34,319 nucleotides of DNA from Planctomycetota bacterium (GTDB lineage: Bacteria; Planctomycetota; UBA8742; UBA2392): assembly GCA_020847415.1 (NCBI GenBank), contig JADLBZ010000257.1:1-34319 (forward strand), given 5' to 3'. Position 1 is the first letter of the stretch; every line of letters starts with the position of its first letter. Shown piece after piece: positions 3,405 through 23,102 of the stretch. The notes under the pieces were generated by a model. That model had not been told where the DNA came from. It searched no databases and was given only the letters and a program-made list of their open reading frames with translations. Position numbers and translations under genes: made by a program.

Positions 3405-5654
3405 CTAGTTCCGCGCCCTGTGTGTAACCCGCACCGCGGCCAGCAGCGCCAGCAGCAGTACAGCCACCGCCGCAGGCCACGCCGGGCCGCCGCGGGTGGA
3501 CAAGTCGCAACCTTCTTCGTCATCGTCGTCAGCAAACGGGTCGTCGGGCAGGGACTCAATCAGCGTGATCTGCCCGCCGGTGACTGCCGTACCGCTTAGC
3601 ACTGCCGAGCCGGTGACGCCGGCAGTCTGGATGCTGGCGGTATAGCGCGGGTTGGGCACCGGAACGCTGGCGCCGGTGAAGCTGATCGCCAAGGCGTAAT
3701 CCGCTGAGGTGCCCGCCGTAATGTTGTTGCTGAGGCCGCTCAGGCTGACCGTGACGTTGTCGCCCACAGCCGACCAGCCGGTGCCGCCGTTAGTGACCGT
3801 GCCCAGCACGGTGCTACCCCGCACAAAACTGACCGACGAGATGCGGGCAATTGCAACGCCGGCAGTATTGTTCACCGTGGCCACTGTGGCAGAGAGGCCG
3901 GTAACCGTGTAGGCCGTGCCGCCGCCCGTCTCGGTGACGCGGAAGACCAGGGCCGTGCGGCTGGTGCCCGGGTTAGCACTTTGAACGCCGGGGTTGGAGG
4001 GGCTGGCAGCCATGGAGCCCGCCGCCGGTGCGGTGATGCTGCCGCTGCACGCCTGGTTTTGTGTCGTCGCACTTGAACTGGCGTGGGTGATGTTGCCAGT
4101 GTGAGGCGAGCTGGTGTTGCTGGGGTTGTAGCGGACGAAGATCGTGGTCGAGGCGACAGTGCCACCTGCCGGGGTCAGCGTGATTGGGTTCGTTGCAGCA
4201 AAACCGCCTCCGCCCGTGAGGCTGATCTCAAAGTGCGAAGGGGGCGTAACGGTGATGTTGGCCGCCAGGTTGGCGCCAGCAACCGTGTACGACTGCTGCG
4301 CGCTGGGAACGCTTACGCCCGTCGTGTTGAACGCCGTCAGGGTGCCGGTCACCGTGATAGTCGGTGTGGGCGTCGCCGTAATGTCGAATGTGGCCGAGGT
4401 GTCGTTCGTCAGCGCGCCGGAGCTTGCCACCAAAGTATAGCCGGTGCCCGCGTTGTTCAGGCTAACGCCGGCAAACGTTGCCAAGCCTGCCGAAGCGGCC
4501 GTCGCGCCGCCGCCGCTGAGCGTGCTGCCGCCCGGGTTCGTGCCGATCACCAGCGACACGTTGGCGCTGCTGCTGGTGCGGTTACCGAACTGGTCAACGA
4601 TCTCCACCGTGATGGCCGGAGAGATCGCAACGCCCGTCTGCGCGTTGCTGGGCTCCTGCACAAAGCGGACCGCACTGTCTGACGCCGGATTAATCGTGAA
4701 CGCGGAAGAGATGGCCGAAGTCAGGCCTGCGAACGAGAAGGTGAGTTCCTTGTCGGTGCCGATCAAGTTGATGCTGAGGTTGCTGAAATCTGCTGCGCCC
4801 AGCACAGCGTTCACCGGCGTTGTACCGCTGAGAGTTCCCGAGCCTGTGGTAAGCGTAACCGCAACGCTGCCGGTGAAGGTCGTGTCCGTGTTCCCTGAGC
4901 CGTCCTGTGCTTCTACTGTGATGGTCGAGATGCTTGCGCCAGCGACGGTTGTCGTTGGACCAGCCGTGATGATAAGGCGGTCCGCGGTAACGTTGAAACT
5001 GTTGGACGTGGCTGTGGTGAGGTTCGTCGCCGTGAAACCCAGCGTCTTGGAGCCCACAGTAGAGACAGTCAGCGCGCTGAATGTGGCCTCGCCGGCAACT
5101 GCGTTTACGCTTGTGGTGCCGCCGGTGGCTCCGCTGCCAGTGGCTACTGCCGCCGAAACGCTGCCCGTAAACGATGTGTCAACAGTGCCAAGGCCATCGC
5201 GGGCCTCGACCAAAATATCCGGGGCAATGCTGGTGCCAACCTTCACTGTCGTGGGCTGCTGGGTAATGACAAGCCGATCGGCGGTGATATTAAACGATGT
5301 CGAAATCGCAGTCGTCAAAGCCCCCGAACTGAAAGTCAGCGTGTAACCCGTTCCGATCTGGGCAACCGAGAATGTGAATATCACCTCTCCGGAGCTCGGA
5401 GTCGTGGGGTTGCCGGGGCTTGCGCTCAACTGTAACGGGTTCGCCGACAACACAGCCGTGAAGTCCGTGCTCCAAGTCGTGTCAGTCACATTACTGCTGT
5501 CTTGCGCTGCAACCGTTACATTGAACGTCTGGTTGGCCCGGTAGCTGCCGGCCAGACTACCCGACGTAATCACCAGCTGTGTCGCCGTCTGGGCAGACAG
5601 GCCCGCTGCACCCGCAATCACGGCAAAGACTGTAGCCAGCCACAATACCCGCAT
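3405..5654 (-). CDS. Secreted protein with tandem Ig-like modules and C-terminal membrane/sorting tail
   Basis: 749 residues. A clear signal peptide (about residues 1-21, ending GLSA). Four tandem modules of about 95 residues follow, each opening with a phrase like RLVITQQPTTVKVG or RFVQEPSNAQTG and closing with SxSFNITADR. These are beta-rich, Thr/Ser-rich Ig-like modules typical of bacterial surface proteins. A different beta region spans about 430-700. The C-terminus is a DDDDEE run, Cys716, Gly722-Gly723, one transmembrane helix (about 725-741) and a basic end (R742, H745, R746, R748). This layout resembles the sortase-like C-terminal tags (GlyGly-CTERM, MYXO-CTERM) but I cannot match it to one. 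GGAG precedes the ATG. Base composition is less GC-rich than its neighbours. A surface or exported adhesive role is likely. Confidence 0.8.
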   Translation of the reverse strand: MRVLWLATVFAVIAGAAGLSAQTATQLVITSGSLAGSYRANQTFNVTVAAQDSSNVTDTTWSTDFTAVLSANPLQLSASPGNPTTPSSGEVIFTFSVAQIGTGYTLTFSSGALTTAISTSFNITADRLVITQQPTTVKVGTSIAPDILVEARDGLGTVDTSFTGSVSAAVATGSGATGGTTSVNAVAGEATFSALTVSTVGSKTLGFTATNLTTATSNSFNVTADRLIITAGPTTTVAGASISTITVEAQDGSGNTDTTFTGSVAVTLTTGSGTLSGTTPVNAVLGAADFSNLSINLIGTDKELTFSFAGLTSAISSAFTINPASDSAVRFVQEPSNAQTGVAISPAITVEIVDQFGNRTSSSANVSLVIGTNPGGSTLSGGGATAASAGLATFAGVSLNNAGTGYTLVASSGALTNDTSATFDITATPTPTITVTGTLTAFNTTGVSVPSAQQSYTVAGANLAANITVTPPSHFEISLTGGGGFAATNPITLTPAGGTVASTTIFVRYNPSNTSSPHTGNITHASSSATTQNQACSGSITAPAAGSMAASPSNPGVQSANPGTSRTALVFRVTETGGGTAYTVTGLSATVATVNNTAGVAIARISSVSFVRGSTVLGTVTNGGTGWSAVGDNVTVSLSGLSNNITAGTSADYALAISFTGASVPVPNPRYTASIQTAGVTGSAVLSGTAVTGGQITLIESLPDDPFADDDDEEGCDLSTRGGPAWPAAVAVLLLALLAAVRVTHRARN

Positions 5655-16594: not shown

Positions 16595-19500
16595 TCACGG
16601 CTGAACAATGCGCTGCACGGCGGCCTGCACCCTGCCCCGGTGATACGCCAGCTCCTGCAACAGTTGGGCCCCGGCAGCCATGCCGCCGGACGCCGCGTAG
16701 CCCAGGCGCCGGGCATAGGCCTCAAGCTCTTCGCCCTCGGGCACCGCATCCAGCGGCTGTCCTGAGTGCAGTTGCAGGCGGTTGATGGCCTGGCGCAGAA
16801 AGGTGTAGCTCTCGGTCAGTTCGTCGGAGGTGCGGGCGTCCAGCAGGCCCGATTGCCGCGCCGCCTCCAGCAGGGCCAGCACGTCCGGGTTGCGCAGGGC
16901 CGGCTGTTCGCGGCCGTGGCGCATCTGCAGGTGGGCCAGCACGAACTCGATGTCCATGGTACCGCCGGCGGCGCGCTTGAGGTCACCAGCCGCGGCCTCG
17001 CGCTGCACGCGGGCGCGCATGTCCAGCATCTGGGCGGCGTCGGCGGGCGCGCCATAGACAAAGCGCTCCAGGATGCCCGCCACGCGAGCTGCAATCGCGC
17101 CCGAGCCGGGCAGCACGCGCGCCCGGCAGGCGGCGATGCGTTCCCAATATCCCGCATCGCCCTGCAGGTAGCGCTCCAGTTCCTCGGGCGTCGTGGCCAG
17201 AGTCCCGGCCCTGCCGCGGGGCCGCAGGCGCAGGTCCACGTCGCACAGCTTGCCGCGCTCGCCGGCGGCAGTCAGCAGGTCCAGCACCCTTCGCACGACA
17301 CGGGCGTAGAAGGTCTGGGCCTGGGCGGGGTCCGCCATCGCCGCCGGGTCATAGACAAATACCAGGTCCAGGTCGCTGGCATAGTGCATGGCGCCGCTGC
17401 CCATCTTGCCCAACCCCACCACGGCCAGCCGCTCGCGGGGGGCATCCTGCAACAGGTCGCGGGCCGGGCGGCCGTCCAGGTCGCGGCTCAACTCGACGCG
17501 CAGAGCCTCGTCCAGGGCGGCATCCAGCAGCGTCTCGGCCAGCACACACAGTTCCCGCAGGGTCTCCGGCAGGGGTGTGCGACCGGTGATGTCCAGCAGG
17601 CCAATGCGCAGCACCTCGGCGTCTCGCTGGCTGAAGAGCCCCTCGGCCGGTTCGCGGGCAGAGGCCATGCGGCTGTGCAGGTCGGCGCGCAGGCGGGCGG
17701 GGTCCAGTGCCGTGAAAGTCTGCAGCTCGTCAATGAACTCGTCCACCATGCCGGGGCGGCCGGCCAGCATGCCGGACAACCAGTCTGACTGTGCCGCAAT
17801 GGTGCCAAAGATGCGCAAGGCCCGGGGGTCTTCGGCGATCAGCTCGAACAACATCGTCTTGGCGCCCAGGTTGGCCACGATGCGCTCAAAGTTGCGCAGG
17901 GTGGCGTCCGGGTCCGGCGTGGCAGCCACAAACTCAAGCAGGTGGGGCATGATCGAGGCCAGGTACTTGCGGGCACGGGGCGCGTACAGCCGGTTCTCGG
18001 GCGACTCCTCGGCCAGCTCACGAATCGCGTGATAGGCCCCGGAAAGGTCCCGGAAGCCGTAGCGCCCCAGCACCGGGGCGGCTTGGGCCTGCTCAAGGTC
18101 CGGGTCCAGCACCAGCTCACTCTCGGCATGGGAGGCTGATGAGAACAAGCCGGCAAACAGCCGCACCATCAGCCCGCGCGAGCGCAGGGTGTGGGCGCGC
18201 AGCCGGGTGGCCAACTGGCGGGCGGCATCCAGCCTGCGTTCGCCGCCCAGGCCCAGGCAGCGACCGATGCGCGCCAGTTCAGCGGGGGCCGAGGGCAGGG
18301 TGTGGGTCTGGACGCCTTCCCACAGTTGCAGGCGGTGCTCCACGGCGCGCAAGTACTCGTAGGCCTGGGCCAGTTCGCCCGCTTCGGCCTGCTTCAGCAC
18401 GCCGTGGGCCGCCAGGGCGCGCAGGGCAGGCAGGGTGCCGCGCTCACGCAACTGGGGCAGACGCCCGCCGTTCAGCAGTTGCAGGAACTGGGTGATGAAC
18501 TCGATGTCGCGGATGCCGCCAAAGCCGGTCTTTACATCGAGAAAGGTCTCGGCCCGCAGGTCGGTGCGCTTTTCAATGACGCGCTTCACCTCCTGCATGC
18601 GGTTGATGTCCTCGACGCTCAAGTACTTGCGAAACACCCAGGGCTGCAGCTTCTCCAGCATGGCCTGGCCCAGTTCCAGGTCGCCGGCGCAGGCGCGGGC
18701 CTTGAGCAGGGCCTGGCGCTCCAGGGTGGTGCCATAGCTGTGGTAGTAGTCGAGGGTGGATTGCACGCTGCGCGCCAGGCGCCCGCGCTTGCCCTCGGGC
18801 CGCAGGCGGGTATCCACGCGAAAGACCAGGCCCTCCTCGGTAACCTGGTCGAGCAGGGGAATCAGGCGCTCCGCCAGCTTGACCGCCCAGGCCTGCGCGC
18901 CGGGGTGCTCGCCGGAGAACACAAACATCACGTCAATGTCCGAGCTGTAGTTCAACTCCTCGGCGCCGTGCTTGCCCAGGGCGATCACGCAGAAGCGCAG
19001 GCCCGGCGGCTCGGCGGGGCTGCCCCGGGCGCGCAACTCGGCGGCGGCACAGCAAAGGGCCGCCTGCAGGGCGCCATCGGCCGTGGCGGAAATGCCCCGG
19101 GCCACTTCCTCCATCGGGCGCTTCAGCACAGCCTCCTGGTACAGCACTCGCAACAGGAAGGAATGGTGGTTCTCGCGAAGGGCAGGCAGCACGGGCCGGC
19201 CGGAGGCAATGAGGGCCCGGGCGGCATCGGCCACGGCGTGCGCGGTTACGGGGGCAGCCAGGGCAGCTTCGTCGGCGGCCAGGAACCACCGCCACCCACC
19301 GGCCTCGAGGTAACGGCCCAACAGCCGCGAGTGCCCCAGCACGACGAACAGCCGCAAGAAGGCGGCGGGGGCTTTGAGGGCAACGGTGACGAACTCGCCC
19401 ACGGCGGCGGCATCGCGACGCAAGAGGCGCTCGACGGCGGTCACGGATTCCTCAGGTGCGGGCGAGCCGTCGAAGGCGCGGGCCAGCAAGTCCACAAAGT

Positions 19501-19651
19501 TGGCCGCGTCGCTGTCGGGAACGCGTTGCAGGTCCTCGCGGATGCCCTCAGCTGCTGCCTGCAGCACTTCGCCGGCGGTGGGCGCCGGCTCGTCGGCCGC
19601 CTCGGGGGCGGGCATGGGCCAGTCGAGCGTCCTGGGATCGGGCTCGTTCAC
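16595..19651 (-). CDS. glnE: Bifunctional glutamine synthetase adenylyltransferase/adenylyl-removing enzyme GlnE
   Basis: 1018 residues with the two nucleotidyltransferase domains typical of GlnE. The N-terminal (deadenylating) domain has GKHGAEELNYSSDIDVMF near 226-243. The C-terminal (adenylating) domain has GLGKMGSGAMHYASDLDLVF near 746-766. Each is followed by further conserved segments, such as VDTRLRPEGKRGRL and VDLRLRPRGRAGTL, and a helical domain. The enzyme adjusts glutamine synthetase activity to nitrogen status under PII control. The N-terminal 60 residues are acidic and weakly conserved. The start is a GTG with no clear ribosome binding site; TACACT lies 6 nt upstream, so a leaderless transcript is possible. 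The gene upstream (NYN) ends 33 bp away. Neither glnA nor glnB is in the window. Confidence 0.93.
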   Translation of the reverse strand: MNEPDPRTLDWPMPAPEAADEPAPTAGEVLQAAAEGIREDLQRVPDSDAANFVDLLARAFDGSPAPEESVTAVERLLRRDAAAVGEFVTVALKAPAAFLRLFVVLGHSRLLGRYLEAGGWRWFLAADEAALAAPVTAHAVADAARALIASGRPVLPALRENHHSFLLRVLYQEAVLKRPMEEVARGISATADGALQAALCCAAAELRARGSPAEPPGLRFCVIALGKHGAEELNYSSDIDVMFVFSGEHPGAQAWAVKLAERLIPLLDQVTEEGLVFRVDTRLRPEGKRGRLARSVQSTLDYYHSYGTTLERQALLKARACAGDLELGQAMLEKLQPWVFRKYLSVEDINRMQEVKRVIEKRTDLRAETFLDVKTGFGGIRDIEFITQFLQLLNGGRLPQLRERGTLPALRALAAHGVLKQAEAGELAQAYEYLRAVEHRLQLWEGVQTHTLPSAPAELARIGRCLGLGGERRLDAARQLATRLRAHTLRSRGLMVRLFAGLFSSASHAESELVLDPDLEQAQAAPVLGRYGFRDLSGAYHAIRELAEESPENRLYAPRARKYLASIMPHLLEFVAATPDPDATLRNFERIVANLGAKTMLFELIAEDPRALRIFGTIAAQSDWLSGMLAGRPGMVDEFIDELQTFTALDPARLRADLHSRMASAREPAEGLFSQRDAEVLRIGLLDITGRTPLPETLRELCVLAETLLDAALDEALRVELSRDLDGRPARDLLQDAPRERLAVVGLGKMGSGAMHYASDLDLVFVYDPAAMADPAQAQTFYARVVRRVLDLLTAAGERGKLCDVDLRLRPRGRAGTLATTPEELERYLQGDAGYWERIAACRARVLPGSGAIAARVAGILERFVYGAPADAAQMLDMRARVQREAAAGDLKRAAGGTMDIEFVLAHLQMRHGREQPALRNPDVLALLEAARQSGLLDARTSDELTESYTFLRQAINRLQLHSGQPLDAVPEGEELEAYARRLGYAASGGMAAGAQLLQELAYHRGRVQAAVQRIVQP

Positions 19652-19674
19652 GCCGCGAGTGTAGTACCTGATTG

Positions 19675-19696
19675 GCCGGCCGCGCTACTGGAGGCG
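19675..19696. repeat. 22-bp direct repeat, left copy
   Basis: Exact copy of 20646-20667. It covers the last codons (Arg-Leu-Gln-stop) of the NYN gene and the bases after it. The two copies are 971 bp apart and enclose the NYN gene. Confidence 0.8.
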
Positions 19697-20515
19697 CTTC
19701 CGGCACTCGTCAAGGAAGGCCGAGCGGAGCTGGCGCTTTTGTGCGGGATTCAGCGAGGTGCCGCCAAGCGCTTGACTGCCCGTAAGCAGCAACTGTCGAT
19801 CCAGCTGAGACGGGACAGCGCCGCCCTCTGACTCGCGGATCACGGCCGTCACTTCCTCAAGGCTGAGCCGTCCGGCAATGTGCCGTGCGGTAGCCTTGAT
19901 TCCGTCTTGTCCGGCATCCGTTGAGGCAGGGCTTGAGGGCGAAGCCGGTTGTACAGCCAACTGCAACGCTGTCGCCGGCGGAGCGACCCGACTCAGGAAT
20001 GTCTCGACTTCTGCCAGGGTCAACTCGCGAACGCTGTCTGCCTCTTGCACCAGAAAGCCGGATTGATTTTCGCGCGCCGGGGCAACTCCTAGCAGGTGCA
20101 CACGGACACCGAACTCCTGAGCCTGTTGGACACCGACCCGAATGTCTTCGTCTCCGGTCAAGAGCAGCACGTCCGCCATTGCCCGATTGCGCGCCAAGTT
20201 GATGAGATCGGTAACGATGAGCGAGTCCACGCCCTTCTGTTGTCCCTGCTGATTTACGAACCCCAGGCGGAGCTTCACGCTGGGCCGGTATGCAAGGGCA
20301 AGTTGCTGCGGTGTCGGCCCCGTGGAAGTGCCGTCGTACCAGTAAACCCTCAGAAGCGGCAGCTCTGTGATGTCAGCAACGAGGCCGGTGAGCAATTTCA
20401 GCACCGCATCGTAGTTGAGGTTCAGCTCGCCGCGGGGCAGCTTCTCATTGCTGATCAGCTTCGACCCGGCAGCAAAGAGGTACCCCGCGTCAACAAAGAC
20501 AGCCGTGCGATCCAT
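19685..20515 (-). CDS. NYN-domain (PIN-like) protein, possible ribonuclease
   Basis: 276 residues. Residues 1-150 are a NYN domain of the LabA/TTHA-type PIN superfamily: FVDAGYLF (Asp9), YWYDG (Asp61), KGVDSLIVTDL (Asp97, Asp103) and LLLTGDEDIRVGVQQAQEFGVRVHLLG (Asp122, Asp124), which supply the acidic metal-binding cluster. A linker rich in Ala/Pro/Ser follows. The C-terminal 70 residues are helical (KATARHIAGRLSLEEVTAVIRES), resembling accessory domains of NYN proteins, and their role is unknown. Members cleave RNA, but the target here cannot be inferred. Codon choice is less GC-rich than in glnE. The gene sits inside a 971-bp unit bounded by 22-bp direct repeats. Confidence 0.85.
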   Translation of the reverse strand: MDRTAVFVDAGYLFAAGSKLISNEKLPRGELNLNYDAVLKLLTGLVADITELPLLRVYWYDGTSTGPTPQQLALAYRPSVKLRLGFVNQQGQQKGVDSLIVTDLINLARNRAMADVLLLTGDEDIRVGVQQAQEFGVRVHLLGVAPARENQSGFLVQEADSVRELTLAEVETFLSRVAPPATALQLAVQPASPSSPASTDAGQDGIKATARHIAGRLSLEEVTAVIRESEGGAVPSQLDRQLLLTGSQALGGTSLNPAQKRQLRSAFLDECRKRLQ

Positions 20516-20540
20516 GGTCTACGTAACCGTTGGAATCAAT

Positions 20541-20570
20541 AAGAAGGCCCCGGATTACGGGGCCTTTTTC
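20541..20570. terminator. Bidirectional-looking terminator between anti-sigma-like and NYN genes
   Basis: Perfect 8-bp stem AAGGCCCC/GGGGCCTT with a 7-nt loop (20544-20566). On the plus strand TTTTT spans the stem end; on the minus strand CTTATT follows. For the minus-strand genes it would end the anti-sigma-like transcript upstream of the NYN gene. Confidence 0.7.
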
Positions 20571-20645
20571 AATACGCCGCCCCATTGCTCCATAGTCGGG
20601 ACGACAATTACTAAGGATGCCGCTGCGCTGCATGCGGGTCAAGTA

Positions 20646-20667
20646 GCCGGCCGCGCTACTGGAGGCG
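20646..20667. repeat. 22-bp direct repeat, right copy
   Basis: Exact copy of 19675-19696. Here it spans the Arg-Leu-Gln-stop end of the anti-sigma-like gene and ten bases beyond, so both flanking genes end in the same codons. Confidence 0.8.
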
Positions 20668-22188
20668 GACGCGCAGGCGCACGGTGCGGCCTGGTGCAGC
20701 ATTCTCGGCAGCCTCCCCGTCCGCTTCTTCGGCGGGCTTCGTGGCAGCCTGGGTCTTGGTCGCACCCGGCCGCAGGGACTCCGGCAGGTAACCGTTGCCC
20801 GGGCCCGCGGCGGGCTCGGCCTTCACGCCGGCCGGAATCTTGAGGTTGCCCAGTTCCTGCTCGCCGGCCAGGCGCTTCAGCGCACCCAGCAGCTCCGGCA
20901 GGCGCGACTCATCCAGCTCAATCACCACGCTCTCGGTCTCTGCGTCCGGGTCCAGCTGTGCCTTGCCGTGCAGCGCGCCCACCCGCAGCACCTCGGCCTG
21001 GGCAGCCAGGGCCATGGCGGTTTCCAGAGTCACCGTCACGTCGCCTGCGTCGTTGCTGTCCTCGTTCTGCTCCTCAGCGGCGCCGCCTGTGCCGCCGCCC
21101 AGGGCCGGCTGGGCCGGGGGCTCGGGCTGGGGCTTGCCCTTGGCTCGGCCGAAATCAGAGCCGTCCTTGGAGTCGCCGCCCTGAGGCTGCTGGTTGGGCT
21201 CACCCTGCACGCCGCCCAGGCCCTGCTTGTCGTCGGTCGGGCCGGCAACGGACTTCTTGGGAGCCTCGCGGTCGTCTTCGCCCTTGGATTCCCGGGCGCC
21301 TTCCTCGACCTTCTCCTCTGAGTCATTGCGCGAGTTGCTGGAATCGTCCCAGGTTTCGTTCTTCTTCTTGCCCCTTGCCACGCCGCCGCCACCGCCCGTG
21401 TCGCCGCCAGCGCGCTCGCGCTCAGTGCCGTGCTTTGGTGCCGGCTCGCTGCCGCCCGCTGCACCGGTGCGGCCCGTGGATTCCACCTTGCGGACTTCCT
21501 CTGCCAGCCCGTCTGTATTTGCACCAGGCGCCGGGGCAGGGTTGGCAGGGTCTGAAGCAGCAGGGTCCTCGCCTTCCGCCTCGCGACGCAGGGCGGCACC
21601 TTCCTTAGCCAGCTCCTTGCCCAGATTCTCGCCGTAGTCCTTCTTCAGGTCGCCGGTCTTGGCCCCGTCTTCTTCCAAGGCTTCCAGCGCGTAGACATCC
21701 TTGGCGGGCTTGTCTGCCGTGCTGCTTTCCGGCTCCGGCACGCGCGCCTGAACTGCCGTATCCAGGCCCGGCAACTCACGGGCGATACCGGTGCCGCGCT
21801 CGGGCGCGGGCTCAAGCAACGACGGCCCGAACATGATGCCCAGGCTGATGACGAGGGCCGCCGCAGCCGCCACAAAGGGCATGCGCCAGGTGGTGGTGGG
21901 CAGGGCGTGAACCTTGCCGCCTTCCTGTTTCCGGTTGGTGGGGCGCGAAATGCCGTCTACATCACTATCCAGGGCGACCAGAACGCGGCTGGCCAGGCCC
22001 ACCGGGGCGCGCAACGCACCGTGGCGCTGCACCAGCCCGCTCAGGGCCTGCACGCAACGCAGATACTCGGCGGCCTCGGGCCGGGCCAGCAGGGCTTCTG
22101 CCTGCCGGGCCTCGGCGCCGGCCAGCTCGCCGTCCGCGTGGGCGGACAGCAGCTCGCGTTCAGCCTGGTTCAGCTCGCTGCGTTCCAT
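20656..22188 (-). CDS. Anti-sigma-factor-like single-pass membrane protein with long disordered region
   Basis: 510 residues from the ATG at 22188. The N-terminus LNQAERELLSAHADGELAGAEARQAEALLARPEAAEYL matches the putative zinc-finger/anti-sigma N-terminal helix pattern of Planctomycetes-type anti-sigma proteins. Only His17 and Cys45 are present, so a full HxxxCxxC zinc site is missing. One membrane helix lies at about 103-121. Residues 150-400 are acidic, Gly/Lys-rich and low-complexity. The last 130 residues form a folded domain beginning DVTVTLETAMALAAQAEVLRVG, possibly periplasmic. No sigma factor is adjacent (the upstream gene is exonuclease III). Role: probably regulation, unproven. A longer frame upstream exists but lacks family similarity. 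Confidence 0.65.
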   Translation of the reverse strand: MERSELNQAERELLSAHADGELAGAEARQAEALLARPEAAEYLRCVQALSGLVQRHGALRAPVGLASRVLVALDSDVDGISRPTNRKQEGGKVHALPTTTWRMPFVAAAAALVISLGIMFGPSLLEPAPERGTGIARELPGLDTAVQARVPEPESSTADKPAKDVYALEALEEDGAKTGDLKKDYGENLGKELAKEGAALRREAEGEDPAASDPANPAPAPGANTDGLAEEVRKVESTGRTGAAGGSEPAPKHGTERERAGGDTGGGGGVARGKKKNETWDDSSNSRNDSEEKVEEGARESKGEDDREAPKKSVAGPTDDKQGLGGVQGEPNQQPQGGDSKDGSDFGRAKGKPQPEPPAQPALGGGTGGAAEEQNEDSNDAGDVTVTLETAMALAAQAEVLRVGALHGKAQLDPDAETESVVIELDESRLPELLGALKRLAGEQELGNLKIPAGVKAEPAAGPGNGYLPESLRPGATKTQAATKPAEEADGEAAENAAPGRTVRLRVRLQ

Positions 22189-22307
22189 GGCGCACCATCC
22201 AGCCTGCCCCACCGTGGGGCCTGCAACTTTGACGCCTTGGGTTGCGGGCTGGTTCCACCCATTTGCGGGCAGGGCCGCCACTATGCAAGGGGTTGGCAGA
22301 TTTGGGG

Positions 22308-23102
22308 TTATTCCGCCAGCTCGCACAGCACGGGGGTGTGGTCGCTGGGGCGCTCCCAGGTGCGGGGGTCCACGTCAATCCAGGCCTTCTTCACCGAGCC
22401 CTTCAGGCCTTGCGAGACCCAGATCTGGTCAATGCGCATGCCCCGATTCTTGCCATAGCCGAACCCGCGGTAGTCCCACCACGAGTACAGGCCCGGCCGC
22501 TGGTCCACCAGCCGCAGGCTGTCGTGCAGGCCCCAGTCCGCGAGGTGCCTCAGCCACTGGTGCTCGCGGGGATGAAACCCCACGCTGCCGGCGCACCCCT
22601 CCGGGTCCCACACGTCGCGGGCCTCGGGGGCAATGTTCGTATCGCCGCACAGGGCCAGCGGCGCGCCGGGCTTGGCCAGCCCGTCCAGATGGGCGCGCAG
22701 GGCAGCAAAGAACCGCTCTTTGTACTCGAACTTGTCGCTCTTGGGGTCCTGGCCGTTGGGGCAGTACACCGACAGCACATGCACGCCCTGGATCACAGCC
22801 TCCAGCAGCCGCGCCTGCCCTTCTTCGCCGGCAAAGCCGGGAATGACCTCCTCAATGGGCAGCCGCGAGATCACCGCCACGCCGTTGTAGGTGGGCTGGG
22901 CGTGCACGGCGGCCTCGTAACCCAGGGCCCCCAGTTCATCGAAGGGGAACTCCTCCTCGCGCACCTTCAGTTCCTGCAGGCACATGACGTCGGGCTTGGC
23001 GGTGGCCAGCCAATCCAGCAAGTGTTGCTTACGGGCGCGGATGGAGTTGACGTTCCAGGTGGCAATCAGAATCGGGGCCCCGTCTATGAGCCTGTCCGGC
23101 AA
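22308..23102 (-). CDS. xth: Exodeoxyribonuclease III / AP endonuclease
   Basis: 264 residues of the exonuclease-endonuclease-phosphatase superfamily, close to the 268 of E. coli XthA. Motifs: ATWNVNSIRARKQHLLDWL, the metal-binding Glu in MCLQELKV, YNGVAVISR, SVYCPNGQ, LALCGDTNIAPEARDVWDP (Thr in place of the common Phe/Tyr before Asn), RIDQIWVS and the C-terminal RPSDHTPV His. It repairs abasic sites and trims 3' ends. The start is weakly supported: TTG at 23102 is the only usable start codon just before ATWNVNS in frame, preceded by GAACGGG. An intergenic gap of 119 bp separates it from the next minus-strand gene. Confidence 0.92.
   Translation of the reverse strand: MPDRLIDGAPILIATWNVNSIRARKQHLLDWLATAKPDVMCLQELKVREEEFPFDELGALGYEAAVHAQPTYNGVAVISRLPIEEVIPGFAGEEGQARLLEAVIQGVHVLSVYCPNGQDPKSDKFEYKERFFAALRAHLDGLAKPGAPLALCGDTNIAPEARDVWDPEGCAGSVGFHPREHQWLRHLADWGLHDSLRLVDQRPGLYSWWDYRGFGYGKNRGMRIDQIWVSQGLKGSVKKAWIDVDPRTWERPSDHTPVLCELAE

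Follow-up and report, generated by a model that had tools for sequence, protein, structure and literature searches.

Type III toxin-antitoxin systems (ToxIN, CptIN and TenpIN) have a structured RNA and a terminator-like hairpin directly before an RNase gene. The toxins themselves, ToxN, CptN and TenpN, have a fold unlike that of the NYN nucleases. Phage morons are single-gene transcription units found between phage genes. The NYN/LabA-like proteins (DUF88) are PIN-fold ribonucleases, and one such NYN protein, associated with CRISPR, cleaves single-stranded RNA in a Mn-dependent manner (PMC11346440). The prophage defence gene of BstA has a conserved element, aba, at its 5' end, and aba acts as DNA (PMC8585504). 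Integrase-type islands at gene 3' ends, and CIMEs, are flanked by direct repeats and restore the gene end.

The locus described here shares some feature with each of these. The window, the whole stretch of 34,319 nucleotides that was analysed, carries a single NYN gene between an anti-sigma-like gene and glnE, in a unit bordered by two copies of a 22-bp repeat. Both the repeat and the insertion are real, and they are specific to this lineage. Taken as a whole, the probable explanation is a recently acquired unit of moron type that encodes a putatively leader-gated NYN RNase and entered by a one-off illegitimate insertion, duplicating 22 bp of its target. Of more interest is what was inserted, an NYN gene of scattered occurrence whose leader RNA covaries and lies outside Rfam. 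The initial annotation of this DNA was silent on the conserved leader and on the wide distribution of the unit.

Layout of the Locus and the 22-bp Repeat

All genes here lie on the minus strand. In reading order they are the anti-sigma-like gene (22326-20656), the NYN gene (20515-19685) and glnE (19651-16595). The features are:

20656..22326, minus strand: anti-sigma-like gene, left neighbour of the unit (linked to glnE in most relatives)
20646..20667, minus strand: upstream 22-bp copy, the native anti-sigma-like 3' end, Arg-Leu-Gln-stop plus CGCGGCCGGC (C-terminus VRLRVRLQ* matches VVIRLK*/VKFK*/VRVR* of relatives)
19697..20645, minus strand: inserted unit, 949 bp, with promoter region, leader RNA and NYN gene (missing from the anti-sigma/glnE junction of relatives)
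20637..20642, minus strand: TTGACC, a hexamer resembling a -35 box, at the unit's left edge (TTGAC conserved in most homologous units; -10 weak in the window)
20536..20606, minus strand: leader RNA of two hairpins, conserved (55.8 bits with covariance model R1)
20576..20605, minus strand: leader hairpin 1, GTCGTCCC / GGGGCGGC with loop GACTATGGAGCAAT (folding and covariance)
20544..20566, minus strand: leader hairpin 2, terminator-like, AAGGCCCCG-TAATC-CGGGGCCTT then CTTATTGATT (covariance alignment and scan)
19685..20515, minus strand: NYN-domain (PIN-like) nuclease gene, 276 aa (Pfam PF01936, 5.1e-11; alignments; AlphaFold model)
19675..19696, minus strand: downstream 22-bp copy, which gives the NYN gene its last three codons and stop (sequence identity)
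16595..19651, minus strand: glnE, right neighbour of the unit (Pfam GlnE, 7e-90)

No letter differs between the 22-mers at 19675-19696 and 20646-20667, and the match stops at once beyond both ends. Their starts are 971 bp apart, and 949 bp lie between the copies. On the minus strand each reads CGC CTC CAG TAG followed by CGCGGCCGGC, or Arg-Leu-Gln-stop and 10 nt. The initial annotation had reported the identical pair with these ends and this spacing, and had placed Arg-Leu-Gln-stop in both copies, one closing the NYN ORF (19685-20515) and the other the anti-sigma-like ORF (20656-22326); both statements are confirmed. The 22-mer is the longest exact direct repeat of the 34-kb window, where the runner-up is 17 bp; across 60 sequences of equal length drawn from a third-order Markov model, the longest repeat had a mean of 16 and a maximum of 19 bp. 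A search of the 3.58-Mb genome for extra copies, proposed as a check in that annotation, gave none even with up to three mismatches allowed, and an exact search of IMG/VR gave zero copies.

The NYN gene has a GC content of 61.5%, compared to 70.2% for glnE and 70.1% for the anti-sigma-like gene, so the lower value relative to glnE that had been noted earlier is borne out. The corresponding GC3 values are 70, 87 and 81%. The unit was also said to hold no recombinase, which is correct, NYN being the sole gene encoded. Ten window ORFs scanned against Pfam gave housekeeping-type matches or none, with no recombinase among them. There is no tRNA and no CRISPR neighbourhood in the window, and the ends of the unit show neither an inverted repeat that would pair them nor a transposase gene. 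In the short stretch between the downstream 22-mer and glnE (19652-19674, minus strand), a TACACT-like -10 box lies within about 10 bp of glnE and is conserved in relatives. A box so near the gene suggests that the glnE transcript may be near-leaderless.

Empty Sites in Relatives

None of the 15 same-family genomes encodes a relative of the NYN protein, and most of them have the anti-sigma-like gene linked to glnE. In ten of these (G001, G002, G003, G006, G007, G010, G011, G013, G014 and G015) the distance from the anti-sigma-like stop to glnE is 46-102 bp, with no gene between. The anti-sigma-like C-terminus is conserved in those ten (e.g., VRVVIRLK, VTVVIRLK, VRLIVKFK and VSVVVRVR), and the VRLRVRLQ of the window matches it; it follows that Arg-Leu-Gln-stop belonged to the anti-sigma gene from the start and that the NYN end is the copy. 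The comparison is with diverged relatives (glnE 57-64% identical at the protein level), and what it shows is the C-terminus and the absence of NYN rather than the letters present before insertion. These empty sites, together with the family-wide absence of NYN, support the earlier proposal of an insertion that struck a gene 3' end and regenerated it. Both the insertion and the direction of copying, from the anti-sigma end to the NYN end, are shown.

A strong hairpin of 11-15 pairs, often with a T-rich tail, occurs in the anti-sigma/glnE spacer of seven of the ten relatives. In G003, for example, it is GCGGCCGGC-GACAT-GCCGGCCGC. At the end of the window 22-mers stands CGCGGCCGGC, similar to the left arm of this spacer hairpin. 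Just a GCGGCCGGC half-arm is left in each 22-mer, and the right arm follows neither copy. The simplest reading is that the insertion took place inside an old terminator, and that 22 bp including the left arm would have been duplicated and the right arm lost. Because of that loss the event would not have been a clean target duplication. Alignments of NYN homologues are conserved to about LRxAFxxxLRxR and freely variable beyond it, so loss of the old NYN tail would have cost little.

The NYN Protein

The window protein matches the Pfam NYN family (PF01936) with 43.7 bits, compared to a cut-off of 24.2 (5.1e-11). Residues D9, D97, D103, D122 and D124 are invariant in 23 family members, and all are intact in the window protein. 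The AlphaFold model has a pLDDT of 91.7 and shows an extra C-terminal helical domain on the NYN/PIN fold. Its best match among PDB structures is 2qip (E 7e-8); a sequence search of the PDB gave no relative. From the predicted structure, the NYN/PIN fold can be assigned with confidence. The PADLOC candidate HEC-09 is weakly matched by two of the 23 family members (best 3.4e-5) and not by the window protein. The nearest homologue is a fragment in a Polyangiaceae genome that is 78% identical over 116 aa and groups with the window protein with tree support of 100/99.

The Leader RNA

About 40 homologues from Acidobacteria, Verrucomicrobia, Pseudomonadota and prophages, in varied neighbourhoods, have in common the NYN gene and a leader made up of a hairpin, a linker and a terminator-like hairpin. 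The usual order before the gene, on plasmids and in prophages as well, is a TTGAC box, the first hairpin, the linker, a GC-rich short-loop hairpin and the start codon. TTGAC stands at the left edge in most copies and is accompanied by a good -10 in many. In the window copy the -10 is weak, and a consensus promoter scan of that copy found no promoter. The loop of hairpin 1 has 12-16 nt and is often GACTA...AAT; the T-tract behind hairpin 2 is weak.

Several lines of evidence indicate a conserved structure. For hairpin 1 the mean folding z over 32 leaders is -2.7, with 31 of them better than the shuffle mean, and the window leader as a whole has a folding z of -3.3. A covariance model built from nine leaders finds unseen ones in the correct place, e.g., that of L056 at 45 bits. 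When ten sequences are aligned, 89% of cells pair and both sides have changed in 11 of 16 pairs, counts that lean in favour of the structure since the alignment (a trimmed core set plus the covariance model) was fitted to it. The observed pairing is reached in none of 500 shuffles, and sliding the partners abolishes it. Divergent hairpin arms can also be read by eye, as in GUCGUCCC/GGGGCGGC versus GCAGCUUCG/CGAAGCUGC. A candidate pseudoknot, in which the hairpin-1 loop would pair with the linker, was dropped, since some leaders allow the pairing and others do not.

No Rfam family matches the leader above its gathering score. The R1 model matches the genome of the window once, and the window has this single two-hairpin leader and no tandem RNA repeats. 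In 347 Acidobacteria genomes, all R1 matches above 50 bits precede NYN genes or, in L225, an NYN remnant. Weaker matches in Acidobacteria (27-40 bits) with no NYN gene after them resemble, where inspected, ordinary terminators or chance. In L225 (1501-1600) the leader RNA (56 bits) is followed by the first seven NYN codons alone, a decayed unit. On an Azospirillum thermophilum plasmid (L104), two matches to the leader model (3751-3815 and 3923-3987) stand in tandem before one NYN gene. A search of papers available without subscription found no account of an NYN gene preceded by a leader of this kind.

Distribution and Mobility

NYN units were detected in 9 of 347 Acidobacteria genomes, 1 of 388 Verrucomicrobia and 10 of 399 Pseudomonadota, and phyla are partly intermixed in the NYN protein tree. 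Plasmids of Sinorhizobium and Azospirillum also carry them. In four loci (L089, L090, L095 and L096, around 4001-4860) the units occur as morons among lambda-like prophage tail genes (gpM, gpL, gpK and gpI). Of 80 viral loci that share a related phage tail gene, just one has an NYN unit. When gpK relatives were examined for a precise empty site, the boundaries could not be read, the gpK-gpI gap being a variable cargo region.

In L061 (4860-5870) an NYN unit fills the spacer between dnaK and dnaJ, and the NYN stop overlaps the dnaJ start codon (ATGA). The 3' edge of this unit, like that of the window unit, ends inside host sequence. Several copies are truncated (L062, L064, L083 and L225), which fits rapid gain and loss of NYN units. 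On pNGR234a (L103, 4001-4846) the NYN frame, counted from the usual start, is broken after 59 codons; it is intact in the near-identical unit of pSS05631a (L106). By its layout and distribution, the unit is to all appearances moron-like, a self-contained one-gene transcription unit that moves between genomes.

Flanking Repeats and Mode of Insertion

Flanking repeats beyond chance are found in two of about 48 copies of the unit, the window (22/22) and L056 (116 bp, 90.5% identical). In a search of the other copies, about 47, only L056 had such a repeat; those of L105 (11 bp) and L095 are marginal. Because just two copies show it, the duplication is evidently not a regular product of unit insertion. 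In L056 (4780-5986) the NYN unit lies between two versions of an aldehyde dehydrogenase 3' end. The unit starts one base past the repeat that holds the dehydrogenase end, and the second copy comes after the unit. Differences between the two are mostly synonymous, and the second copy may be derived from another allele. Several relatives of L056 have a glutamine-synthetase-like gene after the dehydrogenase instead. In the window and L056 alike, the left edge precedes the TTGAC box by 1-3 nt. Two cases are too few to define a mechanism; they suggest that insertion at gene 3' ends is tolerated.

We infer that a one-off illegitimate insertion with target duplication fits these data better than insertion of the integrase type. 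The incoming unit, recently acquired and of moron type, would have consisted of a promoter region, the two-hairpin leader and the NYN (PIN-like) ribonuclease gene. It would have landed in the anti-sigma-like/glnE spacer, at the 5' half of the probable anti-sigma terminator. The join would have duplicated 22 bp of the target, leaving the anti-sigma gene with its own end, and the NYN frame, cut at its variable C-terminus, would have taken Arg-Leu-Gln-stop from the copy. The process may have been a staggered break with fill-in, or template switching, rather than the work of a dedicated recombinase. The integrase-like insertion put forward in the initial annotation would make the 22-mers attL and attR of a tiny recombinase-dependent element, either cis-mobilizable or an island remnant, that restores the anti-sigma-like 3' end with an integrase supplied in trans or since lost. 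Exact repeats at both edges and a restored gene end are what such an element would leave, and in L056, too, the unit is flanked by two versions of a gene 3' end, the appearance expected of a replacement end carried by an att site. However, there is no integrase in the unit or the ten scanned window ORFs, no flanking repeat in all but one of the 47 or so other copies, which occupy unrelated sites with no common target, and no recurrence of the 22-mer, unique in the genome and in searches of IMG/VR. With no recombinase, inverted ends, transposase or recurrent att site found, integrase-type insertion is not supported and is quite unlikely.

Homologous or homology-assisted recombination has also to be considered. 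The incoming DNA might already have carried an anti-sigma end acquired from a relative with the same arrangement, and a single crossover or unequal exchange would then give two copies. The L056 repeat, diverged yet coding-like, favours such an exchange since pure fill-in would not give that at once, but the window repeat is exact and, at just 22 bp, short for homologous recombination, and no relative with the unit at the anti-sigma/glnE junction was found; for the window this origin is unlikely. The assembly is fragmented (327 contigs, 85% complete), which leaves room for supposing that the NYN gene is old here and the 22-mer a later gene conversion, a chance match or an assembly artefact. That supposition is disfavoured as very improbable: NYN is missing from the family (15 genomes), the repeat is far beyond what the Markov sequences give by chance, a 22-bp repeat alone would not lead an assembler to put in a foreign gene at both edges, and the NYN unit is intact with its leader. 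Illegitimate insertion with duplication of the target is thus the preferred reading.

Possible Function and Significance

The leader would probably gate NYN expression by ending transcription early, an effect that either the nuclease itself or a signal would relieve or enforce, and the RNase would be switched on under stress such as phage infection. The most economical proposal is that a potentially harmful RNase is either autoregulated or subject to signal-gated attenuation. A role in defence is proposed because prophages and plasmids carry NYN units; most likely, we infer, the gene product is an RNase that its own leader RNA gates, and phage defence may be its purpose. Whether leader and NYN gene form an RNA-gated RNase module of an undescribed kind (toxin/antitoxin-like or anti-phage), spread across phyla as a single-gene unit by prophages, plasmids and chromosomes, can be answered in the affirmative only tentatively. 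A more specific version, in which the pair acts as a type III-like toxin-antitoxin system, with a short RNA ending at hairpin 2 to bind and silence the RNase and read-through to make the toxin, is rather doubtful. The order of promoter, structured RNA, terminator and RNase gene is the same, the covarying RNA is found just with NYN, and carriage is by prophages and plasmids; but tandem RNA repeats are missing, the NYN fold differs from the ToxN, CptN and TenpN toxins, and hairpin 2 is followed by a weak T-tract.

Little is understood about the entry of single moron-like genes into genomes, and a recent insertion whose join can still be read is a useful case. This one displays a 22-bp target duplication; a terminator arm was probably lost, and the stop codon of a neighbour was captured. 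The covarying leader, absent from Rfam and tied to a scattered NYN RNase, provides a testable candidate for an RNA-regulated nuclease of prophages and plasmids.

Comparison with Known Systems

With transposons and insertion sequences the contrast is simple, since the window unit has no terminal inverted repeats and no transposase. Integrase-type islands and CIMEs resemble it in the flanking direct repeats and the restored gene end, but it has no recombinase or recurrent site and most of its copies have no repeats. Homologous NYN units are, like BstA with aba, prophage-borne with a conserved 5' element (PMC8585504). In contrast, the proteins are unrelated, and the NYN leader covaries in the manner of an RNA whereas aba acts as DNA.

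The protein resembles NYN/LabA-like (DUF88) PIN-fold ribonucleases in its Pfam NYN match, conserved acidic residues and a fold nearest 2qip. It differs in its extra C-terminal helical domain, and its gene is solo, with a dedicated leader RNA and no CRISPR neighbours. Type III toxin-antitoxin systems likewise place a structured RNA with a terminator-like hairpin immediately ahead of their RNase gene; the window unit has no repeat array and a different RNase fold, and an antitoxin role for its RNA is putative.

Phage morons offer a further parallel. The window unit has one gene with its own promoter region and hairpin, its composition is foreign, it is an extra gene between genes that are adjacent in relatives, and homologous units are found among lambda-like prophage tail genes. 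It lies, however, in a chromosomal operon region with housekeeping neighbours and no prophage, and it has a conserved structured leader, a border of 22-bp duplication and no 3' terminator. The unit is best described as moron-like, and not as a moron.
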